Source of the DNA: Ignavibacteriota bacterium
GTDB lineage: Bacteria; Bacteroidota; Ignavibacteria; UBA10030
Direction: 5' to 3'
DNA length: 52,607 bases
NCBI GenBank assembly: GCA_003142575.1
Contig: PLMS01000152.1
Location: 1-52,607 of the forward strand
The position numbers were made by a program, and so were the translations under genes. The notes under the pieces were generated by a model. It was not told where the DNA came from. It was given only the letters and a program-made list of their open reading frames with translations, and did not search any database. Shown here piece by piece: positions 1,264 to 15,372 of the stretch (position 1 is its first letter; each line of letters starts with the position of its first letter).

Positions 1264-1932
1264 TTATATCCTGTGATCCTCGCGAATTATTGTCCGGCTG
1301 CCGCCATCAATGCTTTTGCTCCAATCCTTGATAGGATGCTCCTTAGCAATTTTATCTAACTGATCGATATTTTTTAGTCTCTTATAAATGAGTTGCCACG
1401 CACATGGTTGATCGGCCCTGATTTCACATCTATCTTCACGCGAGCCGCCGCAAGGACCATTAAGCATGTGTTTCGCACATCGTGTAATCGGACAAATACC
1501 ACCAAAGTCAGATAGAACACAAGTCCCGCATTGCATGCATTTTTCCGTCCATACGCCTCTCGATTCGAGAATACCAAGGAAGGCTGTGTCGAGGCCTGCA
1601 TATACCGGAGTATCCGGGTAACGTTCAGCAATTGCCTGAACTCCTGCTCCGCAGCCCAATGAAAGGACTGCATCGTTTTTCTTGATTTCTTCGGCAGCGC
1701 CTTCTATAAAAACATTGTCGCACTGGCGTTCAATAGTAAATTCGTTGACTTTAATTTTCTTGCCTGCTTTGCGCGATGCAATTCTTAGCGCCGAGGATAT
1801 GATTGAAACTTCACGTTCGCCTCCGGCAAGGCATACAGTAACACAAGTACCGCATCCGAGAACCAAAACACTTTTGTGTTCTTGAATTACATTAAATATT
1901 TCCGGTATTTTTTTTCTTTGAGCGACTATCAT
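1264..1932 (-). CDS. metV: MetV-like methylene-THF reductase partner (MTHFR C-terminal family)
   Basis: This is a 222-residue cytoplasmic iron-sulfur protein of the zinc/Fe-S MTHFR_C family (MetV). In acetogens MetV pairs with MetF and connects the flavin site to the electron supply. The N-terminal half has a VLVLGCGTCVTVC motif, and a LSLGCGAGVQ motif near residue 90. The C-terminal third is the cysteine-rich signature: CMQCGTC, then CPITRCAKHMLNGPCGG and a final CEIRADQPCAW. It is the last gene of the operon, 25 bases after mvhD. The MetF partner is the second gene of the same operon, about 12 kb upstream. No good Shine-Dalgarno precedes the ATG. Family assignment is firm; the role in the complex is by analogy with Moorella. 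Confidence 0.88.
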   Translation of the reverse strand: MIVAQRKKIPEIFNVIQEHKSVLVLGCGTCVTVCLAGGEREVSIISSALRIASRKAGKKIKVNEFTIERQCDNVFIEGAAEEIKKNDAVLSLGCGAGVQAIAERYPDTPVYAGLDTAFLGILESRGVWTEKCMQCGTCVLSDFGGICPITRCAKHMLNGPCGGSREDRCEIRADQPCAWQLIYKRLKNIDQLDKIAKEHPIKDWSKSIDGGSRTIIREDHRI

Positions 1933-1957
1933 TGTAAATCCACTTTATTAAAATAAT

Positions 1958-2434
1958 TTATTTCTGTGAATTAAGCGTTTCAAATTCTTTAAATTCAATG
2001 TCTGGCCCATTATTTATTTTTCGAATAGGATTGGGACCGAGTTCTTTAATTATGTTTACCATTTCGTTTATGACCGCTGCTAAATTAGTAGCCATTGCCG
2101 CAGATATGTTTACCATTCGCAGGCGTTCTTTCTCGATACCGCTTTCTTGAAGAATGTCCCTGATAGCGCTAACCCTCTTTTTAGCGAGTAAATTTCCCTC
2201 TATAAAATGGCATCCGCCTTCAAGACAGCCGGCCACCAGAACGCCGTCGGCGCCGTTTTCAAATGCTCTCATATAATATTCTACTTCGAGTCTTCCTGTG
2301 CAGGGTGTACGAATGATACGCACTCCCGTTGGATATTGCAGCCGCATTGAACCGGCCAAATCGGCCGATGCATAAGCGCAGTAATGGCAGCAAAAGGCTA
2401 TTATTTTCGGTTCAAATGTCTTATCGCTCATCAT
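1958..2434 (-). CDS. mvhD: MvhD/FlpD-type [2Fe-2S] electron-transfer subunit (canonical)
   Basis: This is a 158-residue delta-subunit-type protein. In the methanogen hydrogenase/Hdr complex this family carries one [2Fe-2S] cluster and hands electrons to the FAD of HdrA. All signature cysteines are present: CCHYC at residues 15-19 followed by ADLAG, then PCTGR (C45), and GCLEGGCHF (C70, C75). The gene overlaps the end of the HdrA fusion by 4 bases, which implies translational coupling, and precedes metV. There is no hydrogenase in this operon, so the electron donor is presumably the GltD module, MetV/MetF or the glutamate-synthase-like proteins. A second, degenerate paralogue opens the operon at 14959-15372. 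Confidence 0.92.
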   Translation of the reverse strand: MMSDKTFEPKIIAFCCHYCAYASADLAGSMRLQYPTGVRIIRTPCTGRLEVEYYMRAFENGADGVLVAGCLEGGCHFIEGNLLAKKRVSAIRDILQESGIEKERLRMVNISAAMATNLAAVINEMVNIIKELGPNPIRKINNGPDIEFKEFETLNSQK

Positions 2435-5400
2435 ACGGTTTCTTCTACATTAAATAAATTGTCTATCATAGCCTTGAAGTGGTTCGACTTGAAATGATTA
2501 AGTTGAATTGCACGTGCAGGGCATTCGGATGCGCATATCCCGCATCCCATACATTTTGCTCTTTCAATTTCTGCTTTGTGGTTATGATTACTGTACGGAG
2601 CGCCGTACGGACAGGCATTCACACAAGTCATACACGATATGCATTTATTTTGATTTACAATCGAAACCTGTGCCCCCACTTCCAAATGGGTCTTTGATAA
2701 AATCGTTGCAGCACGAGCGGCGGCAGCTTTTGCCTGTGAAATATTTTCGTCGATCATTTTTGGCGAATGGGCCAATCCGCATACGAACAATCCTTCTGTA
2801 GCAAAATCCACAGGCCTCAATTTCATATGGGCTTCAACATAAAATCCGTTCGCATTGAGCGGAACCTTAAGCATATCTGAAAGCACTTTATTGTCCTTCT
2901 CGGCTTTAATTCCGGTGCTTAAGATAAGCTGGTCGGCTTCTATGAGAATAAGTTCTGGAAAATCCGGGCTTTCCACTTTCACCGAACTCAACACACCGTT
3001 TACATCAGATACGACAGGCAGGTTCTTTTCATCATATCTTATGAAAACCACGCCGGCTTCGCGTGCTTGTTTATAATAAATTTCCCTGAAACCGTAAGTT
3101 CTGATGTCCCTGTATAAGACATAAATGTTTGCAGTCGGATCTTCTCTTTTAATTTTTAATGCATTCTTGATTGCCATTGAACAGCAAATTCTGCTGCAAT
3201 ATGGATTTTCCGTATTGCGTGAACCGACACATTGGATCATCACATACGTCCGGCCTCTTTTTTCAATTTTGCCGCTATTAAGCGAACTTTCCAATTCTAC
3301 TTGTGTCATTACGTTTTTGACGGTTCCATAAGTATATTCTTTTGTCTCGGCGGGCCTTGCGCCTGTAGCAATTATTATAGCCCCGCAGATAAATTCTTTC
3401 GGTTTGCCGTCCTTCGTAATATTGATTTTAAATTCCCCGATATGGCCCGTAACGCTTTCAACTATAGAATTCAGGTGATAGTCGATGTTTCTATGCGTAC
3501 TGATTTTCTCAATAAGATCAGCTTTAAACTTATTGAGGCTCTCGTTTTCGAGAGTGGAATGAACAAGAGCCAAATTCCCGCCTAGCTGGGAAGACTTCTC
3601 GATCAATTCAACATCATAGCCTTGCTCGGCGAGCGAAAGCGCTGCGGACATTCCGCTGACACCGCCTCCGATAATAACGGCATTCTGGTAAATTGGAATT
3701 TTCTCTCCTTCGAGAGGCATTAACCTGAATGCTCTTGAGATGGACATCTTTACAAGCTCGATTGCTTTTACAGTCGCATTTTCAGGTTCGGATGAATGAA
3801 CCCAGGAACACTGATCCCTGATGTTTGCCAGTTCAAACAGGTAGGGATTAAGTCCCGCTTCCCGCAAGGTTTCGCGGAAGATAGGCTCATGTGTTCTCGG
3901 GGTGCACGAAGCAACGACAACTCTATTTAATCTGTCCTTTATTATTTGCTCTTTTATATTCGATAAACTTGCATCGGAGCAGGTATACATCGTGTGCGAG
4001 GCAAACACAACTCCGGGCTGATTTTTGATCGATTCTGTTACTTTTTCCACATCGACAGTTCCGGCTATATTGATACCGCAATGACAAACAAATACGCCTA
4101 TTCTGGGCTTTTCGTCGGTAACATCATGCTCATAAGGATATTCTCTTGATACAATTAACGAATTCTTCGAAGGCGACAATAATTCCATTGCCATTGCAGC
4201 GGCCGCGCTTGCCTGCACAACTGTTTCAGGAATATCCTTCGGTTCCTGGAATGCCCCTCCGACAAACACGCCGGGTTTAGATGTTACCAGCGGTGACAGC
4301 CTGTCTGTTTTGCAGAACCCGTATTCGTTAATTTCAATTCCAAGTTTGCGTACGCTTTCAGTAACAGATATTTTTGGTTCCAGACCGACAGCCAGCACAA
4401 CGAGATCAAACTCTTTCTCAGTATAACCTTGTAGAGGGTCAACATAGACTAATCGTAAATCGTTCGAGCCGGGTATCTGAATAATTCGAGATGGCATGCT
4501 CTTAACATATTCAATATTCTTCATTGCACGCGCGCGTTCATAATACTGGTCGAAATCTTTTCCATGCGCCCTGATATCCATGTTAAAGATCGTTCCCTGC
4601 AACCCACCAAGATGCTCGGAAGCAATCATGGCTTGTTTGGTTGTCGCCATACAGCAGATGGATGAGCAATATTCGTTTCCGGGTTTTGATTCGCGGGAAC
4701 CCACGCATTGTATCCATGCTATCCGTTTGGCATCTTTACCGTTGTCCCTGCGCACTATATGGCCGAGATACGGACCTGCAGCGGAAAGCATACGCTCAAA
4801 TTGGACGCTAGTAAGAACATTCGGATAGCGGTTAAATCCGTATTCTCCTTTTTGCTCTGCGTCAAATTCATCGAAGCCGGGAGTAAGTATGACCGCACCT
4901 ACTTCCAGTTCTACTTTTTCCTCGTTCATACCGTGATCGACTGCTTTCTTTTCGCACGCCGAAACACATTCCATACATTCAGAGCATTGAGCGCAGTTCA
5001 GACATCTTTCGGCTTCTTTAATTGCATCGTCTTCAGAAAAAGGATATTCGATCTCGTTGAAATTATTTATGCGGTTTTCAACTGTCAGTTCGTCGGCTGA
5101 AGCACGAATCTTTTTTGCGACTCTCTTTACAGAGGGGAGCAATTCTTCCGGAAATGGTTTCAGCGAATGTTCAAATCGGTTGGGCAGCATATCTTCATTG
5201 TTCAGATAACGGCTGATAGATTCTGCGGCACGTTTTCCGGCGGCAACGGCTTCTATGACACTGCCCGGTCCGGATGCATTATCACCGCCTGCGAAGATTC
5301 CTTCCACCGAAGTTTCAAGAGTGTCAGGATTTACTTTGAAACATCCGCGTTCAATATCAATCCCAATGTGCTTAGTAAGATCGCCATCTACCATCTGTCC

Positions 5401-6888
5401 TATAGATACGATTACTTGATCGGAATCAATTGAAATGCTATTATTTTCATCGTAAGTTGGTTTGAATTTGCCGCTTGAATCAAATACAGAAATACATTGC
5501 TTCAGTTCTATTCCGGTAACGGATCCATTGCCGAGTATTTGTTTCGGACCCCATCCGTTTCGAATTATGATCCCTTCGACTAAGGTTGCTTTAATTTCGT
5601 CTTTATATGCAGGCATTTCATTGCGCTGCTCGAGCGAAACAAGTTCTACTCTTTTAGCGCCGAGTCTGAGTGCTGTTCTGGCTACATCAACTGCGACATT
5701 GCCTCCTCCGATAACCACGACAGTATCCTTGACCTTCGGCCTGTTCTTTTCATCAGCGGCTTGCCTTAGGAATTCAACGCCGTAGTTCACACCATTTTTA
5801 TCCTCGCCGCCTATGCTTAATTTTCTGCTGACATGTGCTCCGGCACTGATAAATACCGCATCATTTTCCTTTTTCAATTCGGAAAAAGCTTTGTCCTTAC
5901 CGATAGTACAATTCAGAACAATTTTAACACCTTTACGTTTTATCAACTCTACTTCATAATCAAGTATATCTTTTGGAAGTCTGTATCGGGGAATTCCGCA
6001 ATAAAGCATTCCTCCCGCAGAGTTCCTCGATTCATATATAGCGACAGCAAATCCTTTATCGGCCAAATCGCCTGCCGCCGTTAATCCTGCCGGCCCACCA
6101 CCGATAATAGCGATCTTCTTTGCATCTGAAGGAGGATTCTTTTGCTCGGGCAGTTTCAACTCTCCGGATCTATACAATTTTATTTCCTGATCGGATGCGA
6201 ATCTTTTTAATTGTCTGATGGCCAAGGAGCTGTCGACTTTGGAGCGCGTGCATGCTGTCTCGCATGGAGCAGGGCAGACTCGTCCGCATACAGCGGCAAG
6301 AGGATTTCTTTCACGAATAAGATTTACAGCTTTTAGATATTCTTTCTTCTTTATTAATTGAATGTATCCCTGAACATTGATATTAGCCGGACATTTCATT
6401 TTGCAGGGAGAATGTCCAAGCTTCAATATATTAGGTTTATTGGGAACTGCCTGCGCATAATACTTTTGTATCGCTTTTCGTGTACCGAGATCGCGGTTAA
6501 ACTTATCGCTTACTTCAACCGGGCACGCCTTTGTGCATTCTCCGCAATCGTTACAGATTTTTTCATTGATGTATCGCGGTGATTTTTTTACCGTGACTCT
6601 AAAATTTCCCGGTTCTCCCTCAATTTTTTCCAGCTCCGAAAGCGTGAGAATTTCTATATTAAGATTTCTGGAACATTCGACCAGTTTAGGCGAAATGATA
6701 CATGTTGCACAATCGCCTGTAGGGAAAGTTTTATCAAGATGAGCCATCATACCGCCGATAGTTGCAGAGCGGTTTACGAGGTAGACTTTGTATCCTGAAT
6801 TAGCAAGATCGAGAGATGCCTGAACACCAGCTATGCCCCCGCCTTCAACCAATACAGCGCCAATCATCTTTTTCTTTTCAATCTTCAC
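2431..6888 (-). CDS. HdrA-GltD-HdrA fusion flavoprotein
   Basis: This is a fusion of nearly 1,490 residues, more than twice a normal HdrA. In numbering from an upstream in-frame codon at 6954, the modules are as follows. Residues 31-150: start of an HdrA FAD domain (EGGGIAGVQASLDLA, then GDCATCIISPK and a CNDCGEC cluster). Residues 175-600: a complete GltD/NfnB-type NADPH:flavin module with CGRVCPAPCETAC, GGGPAG and GGGNVAVD. Residues 650-930: Fe-S motif CLNCAQCSECMEC and the rest of the first HdrA domain. Residues 950-1090: HdrA N-terminal domain (CHCG). Residues 1091-1430: second HdrA FAD domain. Residues 1438-1480: two [4Fe-4S] ferredoxin motifs. The GTG at 6888 is preferred because it falls 17 bases after hdrB; ATG at 6867 is the alternative. 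Inferred role: NAD(P)H-linked flavin electron bifurcation hub. Confidence 0.9.
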   Translation of the reverse strand: MKIEKKKMIGAVLVEGGGIAGVQASLDLANSGYKVYLVNRSATIGGMMAHLDKTFPTGDCATCIISPKLVECSRNLNIEILTLSELEKIEGEPGNFRVTVKKSPRYINEKICNDCGECTKACPVEVSDKFNRDLGTRKAIQKYYAQAVPNKPNILKLGHSPCKMKCPANINVQGYIQLIKKKEYLKAVNLIRERNPLAAVCGRVCPAPCETACTRSKVDSSLAIRQLKRFASDQEIKLYRSGELKLPEQKNPPSDAKKIAIIGGGPAGLTAAGDLADKGFAVAIYESRNSAGGMLYCGIPRYRLPKDILDYEVELIKRKGVKIVLNCTIGKDKAFSELKKENDAVFISAGAHVSRKLSIGGEDKNGVNYGVEFLRQAADEKNRPKVKDTVVVIGGGNVAVDVARTALRLGAKRVELVSLEQRNEMPAYKDEIKATLVEGIIIRNGWGPKQILGNGSVTGIELKQCISVFDSSGKFKPTYDENNSISIDSDQVIVSIGQMVDGDLTKHIGIDIERGCFKVNPDTLETSVEGIFAGGDNASGPGSVIEAVAAGKRAAESISRYLNNEDMLPNRFEHSLKPFPEELLPSVKRVAKKIRASADELTVENRINNFNEIEYPFSEDDAIKEAERCLNCAQCSECMECVSACEKKAVDHGMNEEKVELEVGAVILTPGFDEFDAEQKGEYGFNRYPNVLTSVQFERMLSAAGPYLGHIVRRDNGKDAKRIAWIQCVGSRESKPGNEYCSSICCMATTKQAMIASEHLGGLQGTIFNMDIRAHGKDFDQYYERARAMKNIEYVKSMPSRIIQIPGSNDLRLVYVDPLQGYTEKEFDLVVLAVGLEPKISVTESVRKLGIEINEYGFCKTDRLSPLVTSKPGVFVGGAFQEPKDIPETVVQASAAAAMAMELLSPSKNSLIVSREYPYEHDVTDEKPRIGVFVCHCGINIAGTVDVEKVTESIKNQPGVVFASHTMYTCSDASLSNIKEQIIKDRLNRVVVASCTPRTHEPIFRETLREAGLNPYLFELANIRDQCSWVHSSEPENATVKAIELVKMSISRAFRLMPLEGEKIPIYQNAVIIGGGVSGMSAALSLAEQGYDVELIEKSSQLGGNLALVHSTLENESLNKFKADLIEKISTHRNIDYHLNSIVESVTGHIGEFKINITKDGKPKEFICGAIIIATGARPAETKEYTYGTVKNVMTQVELESSLNSGKIEKRGRTYVMIQCVGSRNTENPYCSRICCSMAIKNALKIKREDPTANIYVLYRDIRTYGFREIYYKQAREAGVVFIRYDEKNLPVVSDVNGVLSSVKVESPDFPELILIEADQLILSTGIKAEKDNKVLSDMLKVPLNANGFYVEAHMKLRPVDFATEGLFVCGLAHSPKMIDENISQAKAAAARAATILSKTHLEVGAQVSIVNQNKCISCMTCVNACPYGAPYSNHNHKAEIERAKCMGCGICASECPARAIQLNHFKSNHFKAMIDNLFNVEETV

Positions 6889-6905
6889 AAATAAATCTTT
6901 CTCTG

Positions 6906-7775
6906 TTAATTGCTTATGACAGCATCGATAATCGGCTTTGGAGAGACGACACATTTATCCATACCTAGCTTTTCGGGAGAAATGCCTAAACATAATCCCA
7001 CAAGCTGAGTTATATAAACAATCGGGATATCATAGTTTGTGTTTTTTGTTTTATTTATATCGCTTTGCCTTAAATCTAAATTTATCTGGCACATAGGACA
7101 GGCGACAGCCATACATTGTGCGCCGGCAGCTTTTGCCATCCCCAAAATAGAGTTGGAAAGTTCGATGACGATATCTGTCCGTGTGAGAGCGAATCCTCCG
7201 CCGCAGCATTCGACCTTATGGGGCCAATCGATGCTCTCACCGCCCATAATCGTTATAAGGCTGTCCATAATCATTGGATTTTCAGGATCATCAAAATTAG
7301 TCGCTTGATGCGGCCGTACGAGCAGGCAGCCATAATAATTGACTACCTTTAATCCGTCCAATGAATGTGTAAAGGCTTCCTGCAGCTTTTTAATTCCGAT
7401 GTCTTTGATAAGCACTTCTACAAAATGATGAACGTTCACACTGCCGTCATAATCTTCTCCCAATGAATCCGATATTTCTTTTCTGATTTTGGGATTTGTT
7501 TGAATTTCGTAGTTTGTGACTTTCATTCTGTTATAGCAGGCTGCACAAAACACAACCATATCGAGACCCATTTTTTTGGCCAAGAGTAGGTTGGCCGCAG
7601 GGAGAGCAATAGATAGAATTCTATCTGTGTGGTGAGCCGGAGTCGATCCACAGCAAGTCCAACCCTTCGGCTCAATCAATTCTATGTCCAAAGCTTTTGA
7701 GACTTCTCGTATTGACATATATTGGTCGCGCGCCGTGGACTCTGCCGAACATCCGGGATAATACGCATATTTCAT
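6906..7775 (-). CDS. hdrB: HdrB-type subunit with two CCG domains
   Basis: This is heterodisulfide reductase subunit B-like, about 289 residues from MKYAYYPGCS. The family carries two non-cubane [4Fe-4S] clusters, each bound by a CCG domain, and reduces a disulfide or another terminal acceptor in Hdr complexes. Both sets of ligands are visible: YYPGC, GWTCCG and CAAC for the first; NYYGC, ECCGGG and CPMC for the second. The protein should therefore be catalytically competent. The ATG at 7775 is chosen because it begins the conserved MKYAYYPGC; a TTG six codons earlier is possible. It lies between hdrC (69-base gap) and the HdrA fusion (17 bases). Its electron acceptor here is unknown, since coenzyme M/B is not expected in bacteria. 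Confidence 0.93.
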   Translation of the reverse strand: MKYAYYPGCSAESTARDQYMSIREVSKALDIELIEPKGWTCCGSTPAHHTDRILSIALPAANLLLAKKMGLDMVVFCAACYNRMKVTNYEIQTNPKIRKEISDSLGEDYDGSVNVHHFVEVLIKDIGIKKLQEAFTHSLDGLKVVNYYGCLLVRPHQATNFDDPENPMIMDSLITIMGGESIDWPHKVECCGGGFALTRTDIVIELSNSILGMAKAAGAQCMAVACPMCQINLDLRQSDINKTKNTNYDIPIVYITQLVGLCLGISPEKLGMDKCVVSPKPIIDAVISN

Positions 7776-7844
7776 TTGCTTGCAATTCTCCAATTTTTTT
7801 TTCCGGGCTTTCTTAAATTCTATAAAGCTGATAAAGGGTCTGCA

Positions 7845-8393
7845 TCACCTCTTTTTCTTCAATATTCTTTTTACGTATTTTTTATCGGCTTTGAAAGATG
7901 GAAATAATGCTATTTTCCTTTTTTGAAGCATCATTGGAAATTTATCCGTGTCCTGGAAATAGCTTGAAGTTCCAACTTTATATGCTGCGATCATTCCCAG
8001 ATCGTATGTCCTGCCGAACATGTTGATTGTTTTCAGGAACCATCTATTAAACAAAGGAACATTGCCCTTCTGTTTGGCTGCGTTTTTCTTGACTGAGATG
8101 ATCCGCAGAGCATCCATGACAGATGCCATATCGATTTGCATCGGGCAGCGGGAAAAACATGTTTCACACGAAGCACACATCCATACCAGGTCGCTGTTTA
8201 AAATCGAATCGCCTGCGTTCAACTGCAGTCTCCTAATTATTTCCGAGGGATGTACTTTGACCAGCGCTGTTACTGGACAGCCGTTGGTGCATTTTTTACA
8301 TTGCAGGCATCCGGCAACATCAACGCCGGAAATTTCCTTAACTGATTGCAGTAAGCCGGTATCTGTTTTTTCTTTACTTATGACAATGGGCAT
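7845..8393 (-). CDS. hdrC: HdrC-type ferredoxin subunit
   Basis: This is a 182-residue cytoplasmic protein with two [4Fe-4S] motifs: GCLQCKKCTNGCPV near residue 31 and CASCETCFSRCP near residue 75. HdrC shuttles electrons from HdrA to HdrB. A basic tail (KKYVKRILKKKR) ends the protein. It follows the amidotransferase-like gene by 25 bases and precedes hdrB, the usual C-B-A order. No Shine-Dalgarno is visible upstream of the ATG, as for most genes of this operon. The assignment is firm from motifs plus position. Confidence 0.92.
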   Translation of the reverse strand: MPIVISKEKTDTGLLQSVKEISGVDVAGCLQCKKCTNGCPVTALVKVHPSEIIRRLQLNAGDSILNSDLVWMCASCETCFSRCPMQIDMASVMDALRIISVKKNAAKQKGNVPLFNRWFLKTINMFGRTYDLGMIAAYKVGTSSYFQDTDKFPMMLQKRKIALFPSFKADKKYVKRILKKKR

Positions 8394-8418
8394 ATTTATT
8401 TCGAAAAATTATTTTTTA

Positions 8419-11082
8419 TTATTCGAGCACTTCTTCGGCGAGTTCATCAACTTCCTCCTCTTCCCCATAAACATCTTGTTCGGGCGTAGATGGAGTGCCT
8501 TCGATGCTCGGTGAAACTTTGCGATAAACTTTCATCGGATTAAGTTTTTTACCATTCACTGTCAGTAAATCATCTAATTTAATTCCGAAGAGCTTTTCGT
8601 TCTCCGTCAGATATGGCAAAATCAATTCCCAATCTTTTTCCGTAAAAGGGGAAAATATGCAGCCGTTTAACTGTTCTGAAATTAATTGCCGTTTAGGATC
8701 CCTTATAAAAGCAGCGCCTCCTGATGCAAGAGAAAAAAGGTTGCTTCCCGGATATGGTTCCGGCAGAGGCACGACCTGACCTTCTTCATTGAACTTCATA
8801 CCGTTGAGGATCACAAAGCCGCCTTTATTATGTGGGTCGCCCGCCATAAATGATTCGCCGAGAAAATCGAGGCTTGTGCCGTTGATGACAATCCTGGGCC
8901 TTCCGACAGAATTAATCATTGGCCGTCCGGCGGCGTTCCCTTTTACAAATATGGACCCTCCCTTCGCGCCGTACAAAAATGTCTGGCCGACATCACCGTG
9001 AATAACTAATTTCCCTTGTTTTATTATCTGTCCTAACTGGTCCTGGGCGTTGCCATGAACGGTTATAGTCATTCCATCGATACCGGAGCCAAGATAATCA
9101 CCGGAACTGCCGTAAATGTCGATTGTCAGGTCATGGGTTTCGGGTCCGAAACCGCATCCGACATAACGCTGGCCTGCGCAATGAAAGAGGATAAAATTTT
9201 TCCAGCCTAATTTATACGCTCTGACAAGAAACATTGCATCGCATTCATTGCCTTCCGGTGGAAAATTTTTCGAATTTACCACCAGTGTTTTTTCTTTGTC
9301 TTTGGGTCCACGCAACTCGCTTCTTGCTTCAAAATCGATTAGGCGATACTCGGACAATTCGTCGTTTTCAGGACGCAACCTTGGAATATTTATGAATAAT
9401 GAATTCAGTTCAGTCCGAATTATTTGAAGAATATGCGACCGTCTTTTAGTGCCTGTCGAGTACTGCCTGTCATTTAATAAAGTCAGAGTATCGATTGCAT
9501 ATGATGTATATTTATCGTCTTTGCCGATATCTCTCGTTGCCCGGCATGCAATACGTATATCATCGAATGACCATTGCGGAATGTTGTCCCTGATAAATTC
9601 AAAAATATATTTTCCGGCAACGGCATATTCGTTAATTATTTTTTCGATTTGCTCTTTATTCTTTGTGTCCGGAATTTCTTTCCTAAAATCGCAGCTTTCA
9701 GTTTTTTCAGTTATAACAACCGGAGTGCCAAATTTATCTTTACACTCAAGCCTGTATTTGCCTTTATTATCCGGAATAATATCGAACATGAAAGCTCCGC
9801 CATCGGAATAGCTCCCGCCGCGGGCATTCCAGTATTTATCTGCAATCGGACAAATTCGTTTATCATCCTTTGCGAGACTCTCAAGTGTCGCATCAATAGC
9901 CTGTTTTTCGGAGCCGATAATTCCAACCTGAACTTCGCCGTCAACAAAAGCAAAGACCTGCGGTCTCAGCATGGCTGTATCTGTGATGCCCAACAATTGG
10001 AATTTGCGGTTCTCAATAAGATTGCGCGCGATGATAAAGAACCAGGGTCCGTCCGGAGAACCATGCATATGTGTCGATTGAATTGCCCGGTAGATTTCTT
10101 GTTTTTCATTCGGCAGGCGGTCAAAGTCAAGTTCTGTCGTCGGTGCGAATGCCTCTATTATATATTCTACCGGGTATTTGTATATTCTAGACAATAAATC
10201 GAACATCTGCGCCGATACTTCGGTATCGGTTATAAACTGTGGATATATATTGCGCTGTTTTAAGTATTCCGTTACCGAATGGTAATTTGCAAAATCGCCG
10301 TTGTGTACCAATGCCATATTCATCGCAGTAAACGGATGGGCACCACCCGGATGCCAGACCCGGCCCCTTGTCGGATACCGTTGATGTGCAATCCAGACAT
10401 GAGCACAAAGATCGTCAATCTTATAATATTGAGTTACAGCTTCAGCATAACCGACAACTTTCAGGATCATAATATTACGGCCCTGCGACATTACAAAAGC
10501 CGTCTGCTTTTTCGCAGAGACATAAAATTCATGGTTGAGTTTGAAGCTGTTTTGGTTTATAAACTCATCTTCAACATCTCGCCGGTCAAGGTTTGCAAAA
10601 GTGTTTTCAGATATAAATTTACTTAAAGCGCTATCTTTAACACGTACGAAATATCGGTACACATCAGGCGGCTTGACTTCAAGCCCGGGAACACTTTTCC
10701 AATCATCGACCGTATCGAGCTTTGTGGATTTTTTTATATCGAACACAGGATCGACATATATTTTTTCAACATCGGGACGAGCGGAAGGATCAAGATATGC
10801 AATATGGAGCATATAATAATCGTCGAGCACCTCCCTTGATACGCCTAATTGCTCGGGAATAAAACCAACCGCTGCTATTCCGCCGCCTTTGCCGTTGCCG
10901 CGGTTATGCATCAATCTTGAAGGTTCATGAATATGCTTCCCCGGAACCGGCTCGGTGCAGCAAAATCCTACAACACCGCACCCGCCTTCAGCTTCCATTG
11001 CGCTCGATTTATCAGGCAGTTGAAGCGTCTTATTGAGATTTCTTTTCGATTTAAGAATATTTTTTATATTGTAGGAATTCAT
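8419..11082 (-). CDS. Glutamate-synthase-like subunit: class II amidotransferase plus GXGXG domain
   Basis: This 887-residue protein has an N-terminal class II glutamine amidotransferase domain. The nucleophile is probably Cys35 in GGCGVVGF, followed by HNRGNGKGGG near residue 59 and the glutamine-site region HQRYPTRG...HPF...LVHNGD at about 233-263. The 34 residues before Cys35 resemble in length the propeptide of bacterial GltB, which must be cleaved to free Cys1. A middle region follows, then a GXGXG beta-helix at about 635-760 (repeated G-x2-G-x3-G turns). Archaeal-type split glutamate synthases usually encode these as separate proteins (GlxB and GlxC types); here they are one chain. The FMN partner is the next gene upstream, 16 bases away. 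Expected chemistry is release of NH3 from glutamine; the final acceptor is unknown. The C-terminus is very acidic. Confidence 0.85.
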   Translation of the reverse strand: MNSYNIKNILKSKRNLNKTLQLPDKSSAMEAEGGCGVVGFCCTEPVPGKHIHEPSRLMHNRGNGKGGGIAAVGFIPEQLGVSREVLDDYYMLHIAYLDPSARPDVEKIYVDPVFDIKKSTKLDTVDDWKSVPGLEVKPPDVYRYFVRVKDSALSKFISENTFANLDRRDVEDEFINQNSFKLNHEFYVSAKKQTAFVMSQGRNIMILKVVGYAEAVTQYYKIDDLCAHVWIAHQRYPTRGRVWHPGGAHPFTAMNMALVHNGDFANYHSVTEYLKQRNIYPQFITDTEVSAQMFDLLSRIYKYPVEYIIEAFAPTTELDFDRLPNEKQEIYRAIQSTHMHGSPDGPWFFIIARNLIENRKFQLLGITDTAMLRPQVFAFVDGEVQVGIIGSEKQAIDATLESLAKDDKRICPIADKYWNARGGSYSDGGAFMFDIIPDNKGKYRLECKDKFGTPVVITEKTESCDFRKEIPDTKNKEQIEKIINEYAVAGKYIFEFIRDNIPQWSFDDIRIACRATRDIGKDDKYTSYAIDTLTLLNDRQYSTGTKRRSHILQIIRTELNSLFINIPRLRPENDELSEYRLIDFEARSELRGPKDKEKTLVVNSKNFPPEGNECDAMFLVRAYKLGWKNFILFHCAGQRYVGCGFGPETHDLTIDIYGSSGDYLGSGIDGMTITVHGNAQDQLGQIIKQGKLVIHGDVGQTFLYGAKGGSIFVKGNAAGRPMINSVGRPRIVINGTSLDFLGESFMAGDPHNKGGFVILNGMKFNEEGQVVPLPEPYPGSNLFSLASGGAAFIRDPKRQLISEQLNGCIFSPFTEKDWELILPYLTENEKLFGIKLDDLLTVNGKKLNPMKVYRKVSPSIEGTPSTPEQDVYGEEEEVDELAEEVLE

Positions 11083-11098
11083 AAATTCAAGATGGATA

Positions 11099-12670
11099 TT
11101 AATTTTGCTTCTTCGAGATATCCAGATGTATTAATAAGTCCGTTCTTCCGCGTAATTCTTTAATGGTTTTCAATTCGAGGCGTCTTAATATGTCTTTTAA
11201 TCCGATTGACCAGGCGTTGTAAAGATTAATGATCCGCTGTGTTCCCCATTCAATTGTAACTTGGGAGGCAAGTTCCGGATTTGTTGTCGCAATGCCTCTA
11301 GGGCAGCCTTTGCCGCTTTCGCATCTGCTGCATCTTAGGCAGCAAAGTGCCACCAATTCTGCAGTTCCAACAACAACTCCGTCAGCCCCGAGGCAAATCG
11401 CTTTTGCGATATCATAATAATTGCGTATACCGCCGCTTGCTATCAATACAACAGCGTCGCGTACACCTTCCGCTGAAAGGAAATTATGAACCTTCGGGAT
11501 CGCATAATCAATAGGCATTGCAATATTCTTCTTGGCTATATCAGGGGCAGCGCCTGTGCCTCCATACCCCCCGTCTATATGTATTATGTGTGTGCCTGCA
11601 TAATAACTTCCGACGGCAACCATATCGACATCGGTTGGAGTAGAAACCTTTGTAGAAATTAAAGCCCTCGGATTTATATGTTTTATCCAATCGATGTGTT
11701 TCATATGGTCTTCGATCGAATAGACGCTGTGAAAGGGGAACGGAGAGAACAATGGAATTCCCTGAACAGCTTCACGCATTTTTGCAACCGCAGGAGTGTT
11801 CTTCGTGCCCAACAAGTGGCCGCCTAAACCAGGTTTCGCGCCTTGGGCATATTTGAATTCGACGATAGGAACTCTTTGTATTGTTTCTTCTCTCACTCCG
11901 AAAAGTCCAGTAGCAACTTGTGTTATCATATGGTCGTCATACGGTCTCAGGCGTTCCATGTAACCGCCCTCGCCGGTGCAGGAAAAAGTATTCCATGCCG
12001 TTGCTGCCCGGACCTTCGCCAACTGTGTAACATTGCTTATGGAACCGAATGACATCCCTCCGCCGTACCAGGGCACGTCAATTTTTATCTTCGGCCTGCC
12101 GTCGTTTCTTCTATTCAGCTCAAGACTTATATCAATTTCATCGGAGTCGACTTTTGCAGGTTTGTCGGGAAACACAATTCGAATTCTATCGAATCCTCCG
12201 CCGGAGTCGCCGGTCTCATATACAAAATCGGAATCCTCAGGAAGAATTTCTCCGGTTTCAGCCATTCTCCATGTCGCAAGAATCATGTCCGACGTCCATC
12301 TGAAATCTCCCATAACTTCCATCATCGGATTTTTTATCAATCTTAAAGCACCGTTAGGACATTTTGCGACACAAAAATTTTCAGTTTTCTCGCAAACGAA
12401 CCCGTTGCATGTATAGCTTAATGAAGTAGCAAATAACTTATACCCTTTTTTCAGGACATGAACGCCCTTTGTACATGTCTTAACGCATGTACCGCACATT
12501 ATGCATTTCTCTTCATCGCGATAGATGAGATATTTTGCGATTTCATTGCGGTACCTCGAAGGAGCCGGTTTTATATTTTTTTCGACCTCGACCTGCGGAA
12601 CACGGGTTTTAAAAGTGTTACAGGGGAGTATCTCTTCCAGGTTAATTTTATTTTCTAAAGATCGGCCCAT
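11099..12670 (-). CDS. Glutamate-synthase-like FMN subunit with ferredoxin domain
   Basis: This is about 523 residues from MGRSLENK. A ferredoxin region sits near residues 55-105 (CIMCGTCVKTC, then a second, irregular set ending CVAKCPNG). The FMN-binding glutamate-synthase barrel follows, with YAQGAKPGLGG near 275, SIEDH near 320, GGYGGTGAAP near 355 and the 3Fe-4S-type cysteine loop CLRCSRCESGKGC near 447. Bona fide GltB enzymes have SPPPHHD before the SIED motif; here it is SPFPFHS, so the 2-oxoglutarate/iminoglutarate site may be changed. The start at 12670 is chosen because it begins after the paralogue's stop region with only a 23-base overlap. This is probably the catalytic FMN partner of the amidotransferase protein. 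Glutamate as product is uncertain. Confidence 0.85.
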   Translation of the reverse strand: MGRSLENKINLEEILPCNTFKTRVPQVEVEKNIKPAPSRYRNEIAKYLIYRDEEKCIMCGTCVKTCTKGVHVLKKGYKLFATSLSYTCNGFVCEKTENFCVAKCPNGALRLIKNPMMEVMGDFRWTSDMILATWRMAETGEILPEDSDFVYETGDSGGGFDRIRIVFPDKPAKVDSDEIDISLELNRRNDGRPKIKIDVPWYGGGMSFGSISNVTQLAKVRAATAWNTFSCTGEGGYMERLRPYDDHMITQVATGLFGVREETIQRVPIVEFKYAQGAKPGLGGHLLGTKNTPAVAKMREAVQGIPLFSPFPFHSVYSIEDHMKHIDWIKHINPRALISTKVSTPTDVDMVAVGSYYAGTHIIHIDGGYGGTGAAPDIAKKNIAMPIDYAIPKVHNFLSAEGVRDAVVLIASGGIRNYYDIAKAICLGADGVVVGTAELVALCCLRCSRCESGKGCPRGIATTNPELASQVTIEWGTQRIINLYNAWSIGLKDILRRLELKTIKELRGRTDLLIHLDISKKQN

Positions 12671-14048
12671 AAATTTCTTCTTCAATTTCGTCTTTAAACA
12701 TTGCGCGCCCAACATCGCCGCGAAGTCTGCGCACTTCCCGCATTCCCATTGCTCCCATAAGTTCTACTAATTGCCAATGCCATGCGCCTATTAAATTGGT
12801 CATGCGTCCGCCCCCGTATTGCAAATCGATTTCTGTTTCTAATTTTGCCGGACAGTAATCGCCGGGCCTGCAGCTTTCACACAGGCGGCACTCGATTGCA
12901 ATCAACAGCGGCAGATTCATTGAAACAAGATCGGCGCCGCATATAATAGCTTTAGCGACATGTTCGGATAAACCGATTCCACCTCCGGCAATGAGAGTTA
13001 TTTCATCCCTCTTTTCATTTTTTATCAAGCATTCATGAACTTCTCGAATAATTTCCTTCATGAACCGGGGATTTTTTGCGTTAATTTCATTGCCGTTAAG
13101 ATCGGCAACCAGATGAATGGCTTCAATGTCGATTCTTGACAATTCATCGACACGCTTTACGACTTTTTCATCCATGAATATCCGCACGGCAATAATTATT
13201 CCGGGATGATTTTTCTTTATCGATGCGATTTGTTGCTCGATATTTTTATTGTCCGGAATTTCCACCAGCCTTGTTTTATCGAGAATTTCTTTTGGTATCT
13301 GAGGCCCATCCGGACTTAAAAAGAAGGCAATATTTTTCAGGTATTGCTCTATGTTATGCAGCTTTATCGATTTCCATTTCTTTGAGTCGATAATAGCGAT
13401 AAGGCCTGTTTGCTTTGCTGTCTCAATAATGCAAGGCTCGAGAACGGGAAGCGTATGTTTTTCGGAAGACATGTCAAAAATAACAGGGAAAGGAATAGAA
13501 ATAAGAGGAGGAAGGACTGTCTCTAATTTATTGTTTTGAAAATTCAGGAAGGAAGGTTTCTTGCCTATATCAACGGATGTGCTGATATACTCTCTTCCGT
13601 GAATGCCGTCGCGTGTAGGGCGGACAATTTCGGACATATCGGTCCACATCGAATCAAAACCAGGACCCGAAAATTTTCCCCTATATCCTGCACCTGACAC
13701 CGGTACTTTTCCCGTTTCTGCTTCTAACCAGGTAGTACTTAAAATTTGTGGTGTCCAATATTCATTGCCGAGTTTTTGATATTCGGAATTTAAGGCCAGC
13801 GTCAATAAATTCTTCGTACAATTCTGGACACATGAGAAACATCCCATGCATTCATAATAGAGTGTATGGACTTCGTCCAAATCTCTGATGAATGTGTTTT
13901 CTTCCCGGTACTTGTCATAGACGCAAGCCTTCTTTACACAGTTATGACATCGTGCACAGTCTTCGCGCCAGTCCACAATTCCGCATTTCCCTATGCGGGG
14001 AAGTCTGGGCAGAACATGGCTCGTTTTGATATGATATTTTTCAGGCAT
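12648..14048 (-). CDS. Degenerate glutamate-synthase-like FMN-domain paralogue with Fe-S domain
   Basis: This 466-residue paralogue of the following gene has N-terminal cysteine motifs CARCHNCVKKAC and CMGCFSCVQNC (about residues 32-80) and a shortened barrel. The C-terminal FMN-phosphate-type loop LIAGGGIGLSEHVAKAI (about 350-366) and the cysteine loop CRLCESCRPGDYC (about 386) survive. The QGAKPG and GGTGA active-site motifs of the family are absent. It may therefore bind FMN and Fe-S for electron transfer or act as a structural partner rather than a catalyst. It follows metF by 10 bases and overlaps the catalytic-looking paralogue by 23 bases, so the two are likely made in equal amounts. 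Function unknown. Confidence 0.78.
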   Translation of the reverse strand: MPEKYHIKTSHVLPRLPRIGKCGIVDWREDCARCHNCVKKACVYDKYREENTFIRDLDEVHTLYYECMGCFSCVQNCTKNLLTLALNSEYQKLGNEYWTPQILSTTWLEAETGKVPVSGAGYRGKFSGPGFDSMWTDMSEIVRPTRDGIHGREYISTSVDIGKKPSFLNFQNNKLETVLPPLISIPFPVIFDMSSEKHTLPVLEPCIIETAKQTGLIAIIDSKKWKSIKLHNIEQYLKNIAFFLSPDGPQIPKEILDKTRLVEIPDNKNIEQQIASIKKNHPGIIIAVRIFMDEKVVKRVDELSRIDIEAIHLVADLNGNEINAKNPRFMKEIIREVHECLIKNEKRDEITLIAGGGIGLSEHVAKAIICGADLVSMNLPLLIAIECRLCESCRPGDYCPAKLETEIDLQYGGGRMTNLIGAWHWQLVELMGAMGMREVRRLRGDVGRAMFKDEIEEEIYGPIFRK

Positions 14049-14058
14049 ACGTAACTAT

Positions 14059-14949
14059 CTATAATCCGGCTTGAGAAATAATTTCATTTATAATGTCTTC
14101 TTTTCCGCCCGATATGATATGGATGCCGCTCAACCCTTTCATTTCCTTTATTTTATTGATCGTTTCAACACAGATTGCGATGCCTCTTTTCTTTTGTTCG
14201 GCGGGACCGCCGGCATCTTTCATACTATGTATATGCGACTCGGGTATATAAAAATCGGTGTGTTTTTTCAGGAGACTGATCGCTTCGTCATAACTTTCAA
14301 GCGGATAAATTCCTGCAATAAATGCGGCCTTCTCAGTCAGACCTTCCTGATATGCCGCGTTTAACCATTCATGAAAATCGGTAGTATTGAAGACGCCCTG
14401 TGTCTGTATGAACTTTGCCCCGGCCCTAATTTTTTTGGCCAATCGCATAATGTTAAGTTCAAGGGGCCTTACATAGGGATTTGCGACCGCACCGACAAGC
14501 ATAGAAAACTTGCCGCCGATTTTTGAGCCGTTGAGAAGGACCCCTTCATTGTTCATCCTTGTTACAATGTCTATCAGTTGAATGGAGTCGACATCGTATA
14601 CATTTGCCGATTGCGGCATTTCCGATAGGCTTTGATGGTATCCTGAAAGGCATAAAATATTTTTAATACCCAATGATGCGGCGCCTAATATATCGGATTG
14701 AAGAGCGATCCTGTTGCGGTCACGGGTAACAATTTGGTATACCGGCTCGATTCCTGCTTGTTTTAATTTTACCGCCGATGCCAATCCTGATATAATAGGG
14801 CCATACGGATTGTCTGCTACATTCACCGCCAGAACACCTGAAATTTGTGATTTATTGACAGGATCGGAATCAATATTAGTGCCGGCAAGATATTCGGCAG
14901 TAATAATGAAATCCCCTTCTTCAATTTTTTTTGCTAGTAAGCTGTTCAT
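14059..14949 (-). CDS. metF: 5,10-methylenetetrahydrofolate reductase
   Basis: This is a 296-residue FAD enzyme interconverting methylene-THF and methyl-THF, the usual length for the MetF family. Glu19 in TAEYLAG aligns with the catalytic Glu of E. coli MetF, and the folate/flavin motif TRDRNR is present near residue 75. Where E. coli has RGD next to the flavin, this protein has SGY (102-104, in CLSGYHQS), so the flavin-tuning Asp is not obvious. The C-terminal half keeps the barrel motifs GAKFIQTQGVF and AGIYPL. It sits second in an operon with mvhD, metV and hdrABC, as in acetogens with the multi-subunit reductase. A purely biosynthetic (methionine) role is possible but does not explain the partners. 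Confidence 0.92.
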   Translation of the reverse strand: MNSLLAKKIEEGDFIITAEYLAGTNIDSDPVNKSQISGVLAVNVADNPYGPIISGLASAVKLKQAGIEPVYQIVTRDRNRIALQSDILGAASLGIKNILCLSGYHQSLSEMPQSANVYDVDSIQLIDIVTRMNNEGVLLNGSKIGGKFSMLVGAVANPYVRPLELNIMRLAKKIRAGAKFIQTQGVFNTTDFHEWLNAAYQEGLTEKAAFIAGIYPLESYDEAISLLKKHTDFYIPESHIHSMKDAGGPAEQKKRGIAICVETINKIKEMKGLSGIHIISGGKEDIINEIISQAGL

Positions 14950-14958
14950 TGTATGGTC

Positions 14959-15372
14959 TTAGAATGTTTCTGTTACTTTTTCCTGTTCGTTTATTATTTG
15001 CCGGATGCAACTTGATAATTCATTTATAATATTTTCGGTTTTATTTTTATTATCGATTTGAATAAACGAGACGCAATCGCTTCCCATGCCTGTTTCGTTT
15101 AAAAGGTCGTTTATGGCGTCTATTCGTTTACGTGCGCGGAGGTTGCCTTGAAGAAACTTGCATTCACCCGTCATACAGCCGGCAAGTATCACGGTGTCGG
15201 ATCCCGTCTCGATAGATTTTAAAATATATTCAGTGGCGATTTTCCCGGAACATGGCACACTGATGGTATTTAATTCAAATTCACCCAATTGCGAACTTAT
15301 TTGATTTATTTCTTCGGGGGAAATTGAGTTTGAACAATGAAAGAGAGAAATTTTGATTGATGGATTTTTCAT
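14959..15372 (-). CDS. Divergent MvhD/FlpD-like protein with missing cluster ligand
   Basis: This 137-residue protein opens the operon, 9 bases before metF. The family fold is recognisable from VPCSGKIATEYI (C41) and AGCMTGECKFLQGN (C66, C71). The N-terminal C-x2-C of canonical members is reduced to CSNS (only C13 remains) and the ADLAG helix is lost. With four cysteines left it could still hold a [2Fe-2S] cluster in altered geometry, or it may be a structural adaptor between MetF and the rest. The ATG has no Shine-Dalgarno; the upstream sequence is AT-rich. Family membership is fairly sure, cluster binding is not. Confidence 0.75.
   Translation of the reverse strand: MKNPSIKISLFHCSNSISPEEINQISSQLGEFELNTISVPCSGKIATEYILKSIETGSDTVILAGCMTGECKFLQGNLRARKRIDAINDLLNETGMGSDCVSFIQIDNKNKTENIINELSSCIRQIINEQEKVTETF

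Follow-up and report, generated by a model that had tools for sequence, protein, structure and literature searches.

The window, the whole stretch of 52,607 nucleotides analysed here, encodes an unfamiliar form of glutamate synthase, set among MTHFR and Hdr genes in an arrangement that is both uncommon and conserved. We regard it as probably a split and duplicated archaeal-type glutamate synthase, in which GltB2 would be the live chain and its paralogue GltX a dead scaffold and electron wire, tied to MvhD, MetVF and Hdr. The genes concerned are the following:

1264–1932, minus strand: MetV-like protein (MTHFR C-terminal DUF5981; Pfam E 4.8e-36).
1958–2434, minus strand: MvhD (Pfam FlpD, E 5e-49).
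2431–6954, minus strand: HdrA with an inserted GltD/NfnB-like NAD(P)H domain (1507 aa; HdrA2, E 1.4e-291).
6906–7793, minus strand: HdrB homologue (Pfam CCG; two CCG motifs).
7845–8393, minus strand: HdrC homologue with two 4Fe-4S motifs (NCBIfam HdrC, E 4.5e-18, below the family cut-off).
8419–11082, minus strand: GATase class II and GXGXG protein, equivalent to GltB1 plus GltB3 (887 aa; Pfam GATase_6 and GXGXG).
11099–12715, minus strand: GltB2, the archaeal-type glutamate synthase FMN subunit and putative catalytic chain (538 aa; two ferredoxin-type cysteine motifs; SPFPFHS).
12648–14048, minus strand: GltX, the apparently catalytically dead GltB2 paralogue (466 aa; 12 cluster cysteines; strap SGAGY...GFDSMWTDMSEIVRPTRDGIHGREYI).
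14059–14949, minus strand: MetF-like MTHFR whose GD-motif aspartate is replaced by tyrosine (Pfam MTHFR, E 1.7e-24).
14959–15372, minus strand: MvhD/FlpD-like Fe-S protein upstream of metF, found at the same place in most loci (Pfam FlpD, E 1e-21).

The GltX and GltB2 frames overlap by 68 bases on the minus strand, and a profile–profile comparison (hhalign, 58 against 60 sequences) reveals homology over nearly the full length of both (E=2.5e-54, 24% identity). Each chain has a 4Fe-4S ferredoxin-type N-terminus and a C-terminal cysteine loop, as the initial annotation had described. In the alignment of 58 GltX homologues the eight N-terminal cysteines and C387, C390, C393 and C399 are all invariant; in that of 60 GltB2 homologues nearly all cluster cysteines are invariant or conserved above 90%. 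The Pfam family Glu_synthase matches GltB2 over profile positions 55–365 (E=2.7e-84), and its match to GltX is confined to the C-terminal third (positions 260–368, E=1.5e-12).

The two chains show complementary losses. QGAKPG and GGTGA had been noticed in one of the two proteins only, and this is correct: both belong to GltB2. In GltX a deletion of about 44 residues, located by profile comparison, has taken out the loop in full, QGAKPG through SPxPHH. In addition, NGNE replaces GGTGA, GMSFG is gone and the flavin-phosphate turn GTAEL has become NLPLL. Because the catalytic loop, GGTGA, GMSFG and this turn are all missing, GltX has presumably lost FMN. Only GltB2 unites the ferredoxin-type N-terminus, FMN barrel and QGAKPGxGGHL loop of the archaeal-type enzymes, the loop being what GltX lacks.

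GltB2, for its part, has lost the strap that precedes the barrel (S..V/L..P..D..RE...T.vLG). In archaeal-type, MgsC-like and other single-chain relatives this strap shares a chain with the catalytic loops; here the strap sits in GltX and the loops in GltB2. The strap is the most conserved stretch of GltX, almost invariant in 58 homologues. In the AlphaFold2 monomer models confidence is nonetheless low at the strap of GltX (residues 117–150), and likewise at the invariant catalytic loops of GltB2 (291–306, 320–331 and 384–398), as would be expected, though it is no proof, if these segments become ordered only within a complex. Both models find the GltS alpha subunit 1ea0 as their top structural match, GltX with Z 24.0 and rmsd 3.6 over 310 aligned residues, GltB2 with Z 30.6 and rmsd 3.3 over 366.

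A search of GTDB genomes returned 256 GltX relatives, of which 80 were kept, nearly all from MAGs. They occur in Ignavibacteria/Bacteroidota, Planctomycetota, Desulfobacterota, Chloroflexi, Omnitrophota, Hydrogenedentes, Latescibacterota and other genomes. At all 79 loci where the order can be tested, GltX is directly followed by GltB2; since the pairing recurs without exception, the side-by-side arrangement is not chance. Five Desulfobacterota genomes go further and carry natural GltX::GltB2 fusions in one chain of about 1000 aa. We set aside a 1103-aa frame of similar layout (locus L055), which is weaker than these five and whose linker resembles a translated repeat.

A tree of the common C-terminal half recovers GltX as a monophyletic group (UFBoot 100) whose sister is GltB2 (89), which appears to place the duplication before the spread of the pair; the sister relation is less than certain, given the long branches. 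GltX also evolves faster than GltB2. This rate and the lost catalytic loops are what one would predict of a functionless duplicate in decay, a reading that is for practical purposes refuted by conservation: the GltX frame is open and full-length, 78 of its positions are invariant across 58 homologues drawn from many phyla, most strikingly those of the strap, and GltX is retained in the five fusions. Invariance and fusions likewise dispose of the idea that GltX is a pseudogene. Nor is the pair a duplicate of the genome's canonical GltB, which is found on a different contig and has SPPPHHD. Within the window's own phylum, the pair occurs in one of 296 sampled genomes, that of the window itself, and this rarity suggests horizontal transfer.

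The initial annotation had proposed a heterodimer of one active and one structural or electron-transfer subunit. There is good indirect support for a pairing of one live chain with a dead one that resembles an electron-transfer protein: the obligate adjacency of a catalytic and a non-catalytic Fe-S protein, the fusions, the complementary losses, the match of the GltX model to GltS alpha and the old duplication. That the two proteins form a physical complex is what we infer from it.

At the synthase site, GltB2 has SPFPFHS in place of SPPPHHD, as first remarked from this sequence. The motif is invariant in 60 of 60 GltB2 homologues and recurs in further GltX-partnered copies, about 100 in the family as a whole, and it is absent from every one of the glutamate synthase comparators: canonical GltB has SPPPHHD (n=22) and the archaeal-type enzymes SPAPHHD (n=3), so that GltB2 departs from the archaeal-type consensus SPxPHHD. 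MgsC-like proteins have SACRHPD, and other relatives SPARFDD and similar motifs; SPFPFHS is thus specific to the family. Beside it, GltB2 keeps K294, H300, R314 and E335, H300 being a histidine as in the archaeal type. An ungapped offset to 1llw places these four on K972, Q978, R992 and E1013 of Synechocystis, which we take to be 2-oxoglutarate and tunnel residues of the ferredoxin-GltS. Because these neighbours are kept, SPFPFHS would be a family mark beside a mostly conserved site and is by itself no proof of a different product.

Still, the positions that the motif alters do not vary among known glutamate synthases, which is one point against our preferred explanation. One could read it as a change in specificity, with the complex aminating a 2-oxo acid other than 2-oxoglutarate or transferring a one-carbon amine. 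We consider this unlikely, if worth keeping in mind: SPFPFHS is invariant in its family, glutamate synthases having SPxPHHD and the MgsC-like proteins, which act on another substrate, SACRHPD; the window's genome already obtains glutamate through canonical GltB and a dehydrogenase (GDH); and the MTHFR neighbours hint at one-carbon chemistry. Against these stand the four retained residues, the glnA and carAB-purF neighbours of some clusters, and the fact that in most Desulfobacterota carriers this is the sole synthase found.

The glutaminase side of the enzyme appears intact. In the 887-aa protein the class II residues C35, R61, N261, G262, D263 and D286 are present in 57 of 57 homologues. In clusters of the Hdr-less type (described below), glnA lies directly upstream at four loci (L079, L084, L161 and L164) and carAB-purF downstream at three (L081, L083 and L084). 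Among 148 sampled genomes of Desulfobacterota, the phylum to which L081 belongs, 42 have this GltB2, set off by a clear score gap. No other GltS-type match at 1e-30 is found in 34 of these 42 carriers, whereas 65 of the 106 non-carriers in the same sample have a GltS-type match (Fisher p=3e-6, shared descent ignored). This pattern fits glutamate synthesis, and since the carriers are mostly left with no other synthase found, the GltX/GltB2 enzyme may be the glutamate route of many Desulfobacterota.

Taken with the loop lysine and arginine, the tunnel glutamate and the archaeal-type histidine, these results do not support the earlier suggestion of a product other than glutamate, although this holds less firmly for the window's type, the window's genome having both canonical GltB and glutamate dehydrogenase. 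The two enzymes rule out the complex as the organism's sole glutamate route. A full-size canonical GltB is also present in 22 of 40 carrier genomes searched, and a GDH-family gene in nearly all of 23 tested; with canonical GltB in these carriers and in the window's genome, the need for glutamate is not enough to account for the Hdr type. In the window's organism the complex must therefore bring an added benefit. A role in the Wood-Ljungdahl pathway is unlikely, as a search of the genome gave no match to CdhC/ACS.

Other GltS-like genes were seen along the way. An FMN/GltS-like family of about 545 aa with GQGAK-IGGE occurs in many carrier genomes (for instance L127, 958–2619), and at L161 (9652–11280) it lies just downstream of the GltX/GltB2 cluster. 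Locus L129 holds a 1025-aa frame (1322–4396) that joins GXGXG to a GltS-type FMN domain with SPSRHPD, beside an ammonium-transporter-like gene.

The pair is embedded in a larger setting of MetF, MetV, MvhD and Hdr genes, which extends beyond the two genes first described and was missed by the initial annotation. The conserved unit is MvhD-(MetV)-MetF-GltX-GltB2-GATase/GXGXG, and the window joins it to HdrABC with a GltD insert, so that homologues of HdrA, HdrB, HdrC, MvhD, MetV and MetF all fall within positions 1264–15372. Of 72 loci, 70 have MetF upstream of GltX; the GATase/GXGXG protein was seen at 60 of 63, and among 50 long loci 42 include HdrA. Three types can be told apart: that of the window, HdrC-HdrB-HdrA::GltD-MvhD-MetV; a second, more divergent Hdr type; and a Hdr-less type in Desulfobacterota, MvhD-MetV-MetF-GltX-GltB2-GATase/GXGXG. 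Two loci of the fused type (L159 and L161) have MvhD and no metV or metF beside the genes, which makes MvhD the more constant partner and MetVF dispensable in some cases. At a further locus (L163, 867–4587), HdrA-HdrC/ferredoxin-MvhD-MetV-MetF is immediately followed by MvhD-GltX-GltB2-GATase/GXGXG, an arrangement that looks transitional between the types with and without Hdr.

The MetF of these clusters often lacks the GD-motif aspartate, which we take to be Asp120 of E. coli MetF, a residue important for folate chemistry. At this position (alignment column 104), 55 of 70 proteins, mostly of the Hdr types, have Tyr, His, Phe, Thr or another residue, the second Hdr type having Thr or others; the remaining 15 keep the aspartate and mostly belong to Hdr-less clusters, L053 being one of the exceptions. 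In the window's genome two further MTHFRs retain it, and the cluster MetF has tyrosine. With the aspartate lost, MetF of the window's type may act as a relay or on an altered substrate. In the window's HdrA, the GltD-like matches cover residues 157–686, between the HdrA parts, as in type III HdrA. This is a bacterial HdrA with a GltD insert (2431–6954, 1507 aa), a layout so far described for a few methane-metabolising archaea.

So constant an association with MvhD, MetF and Hdr, together with the loss of catalysis in GltX, might be taken to mean that the triad makes no amino acid at all and serves the MTHFR/Hdr complex as an electron-transfer or regulatory FMN and Fe-S module, its glutaminase and FMN domains sensing or scaffolding. 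This seems to us quite improbable: the invariant glutaminase residues (57 homologues) and synthase loops (60 homologues) would be needless for a pure relay, and the neighbours from nitrogen metabolism point the other way.

We return to the split glutamate synthase. A duplicated archaeal-type FMN subunit would have divided its parts between GltX and GltB2. GltB2, holding the FMN site and the synthase loops, would form glutamate from 2-oxoglutarate with ammonia that the GATase/GXGXG protein supplies from glutamine. With its three sets of cluster cysteines and the strap now missing from GltB2, GltX would serve as an obligate scaffold and as the wire for electrons. Through it the synthase is probably docked onto MvhD and, via MvhD, onto MetV and MetF. 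In the window's type, MvhD would also link to the HdrABC-GltD complex, passing electrons from NAD(P)H. We infer the route and direction of these electrons, and glutamate as the product, from the genes and their order. For this type, whose HdrA contains a GltD domain, one would naturally guess at electron bifurcation from NAD(P)H. More tentatively, the enzyme could be a bifurcating or methyl-THF-driven glutamate synthase, in which GltX wires NAD(P)H, ferredoxin or methyl-folate and the strap of the dead chain completes the active site in trans.

Known glutamate synthases receive electrons from NAD(P)H through GltD or from ferredoxin. In many groups of anaerobic bacteria the pair stays together with genes for folate reduction and electron transfer, which suggests that the enzyme makes glutamate with electrons from an unusual source. 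In the literature searched, mostly openly accessible papers, we found no description of a split glutamate synthase associated with MetF or Hdr. If true, a widespread synthase coupled to modules of MTHFR and heterodisulfide reductase would directly connect the assimilation of nitrogen with the one-carbon and energy metabolism of anaerobes, and it would offer a clear case of a flavoenzyme whose parts are divided between a live and a dead paralogue.

Among known systems, the archaeal-type synthase (GltB1/GltB2/GltB3; L087, L111 and L114) has in common with ours the ferredoxin-type N-terminus, FMN barrel, QGAKPGxGGHL loop, four-cysteine C-terminal loop and separate GATase and GXGXG parts. It differs in having one FMN chain with both strap and loops, SPAPHHD, and no MetF/MvhD/Hdr cluster that we saw. 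Canonical GltB/GltD (1ea0, 6s6s, 1ofe), whose mechanism has been described (PMC8097209), shares the FMN-barrel fold and the synthase-loop residues, and the counterpart of its GltD is here the GltD-like domain inside HdrA of the window's type; canonical GltB is a single chain of about 1500 aa with SPPPHHD, no ferredoxin-type N-terminus and no dead paralogue. The MgsABC-like N-methylglutamate synthase (L088–L090, assigned by gene order and not proven enzymes) also has GATase, GXGXG and FMN parts as separate genes beside folate genes, but has a single FMN gene with no dead paralogue in the copies examined; its SACRHPD, absent from GltB2, excludes the latter from MgsC. F420-dependent glutamate synthases have been proposed as well (PMC9012536).

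On the electron-transfer side, the HdrABC-MvhD-MetVF complex of Moorella (PMC5736913, PMC7325909) likewise has homologues of HdrA, HdrB, HdrC, MvhD, MetV and MetF in one cluster, to which the window adds three GltS-type genes, a GltD insert in HdrA and a MetF that has lost the GD-motif aspartate. Type III HdrA, or HdrA9-11, of methane-metabolising archaea (PMC12054007, PMC9012536) has a GltD or NfnB insert and so shares the GltD-like domain inside HdrA; those proteins are archaeal and stand without glutamate synthase or MetF, whereas that of the window is bacterial.
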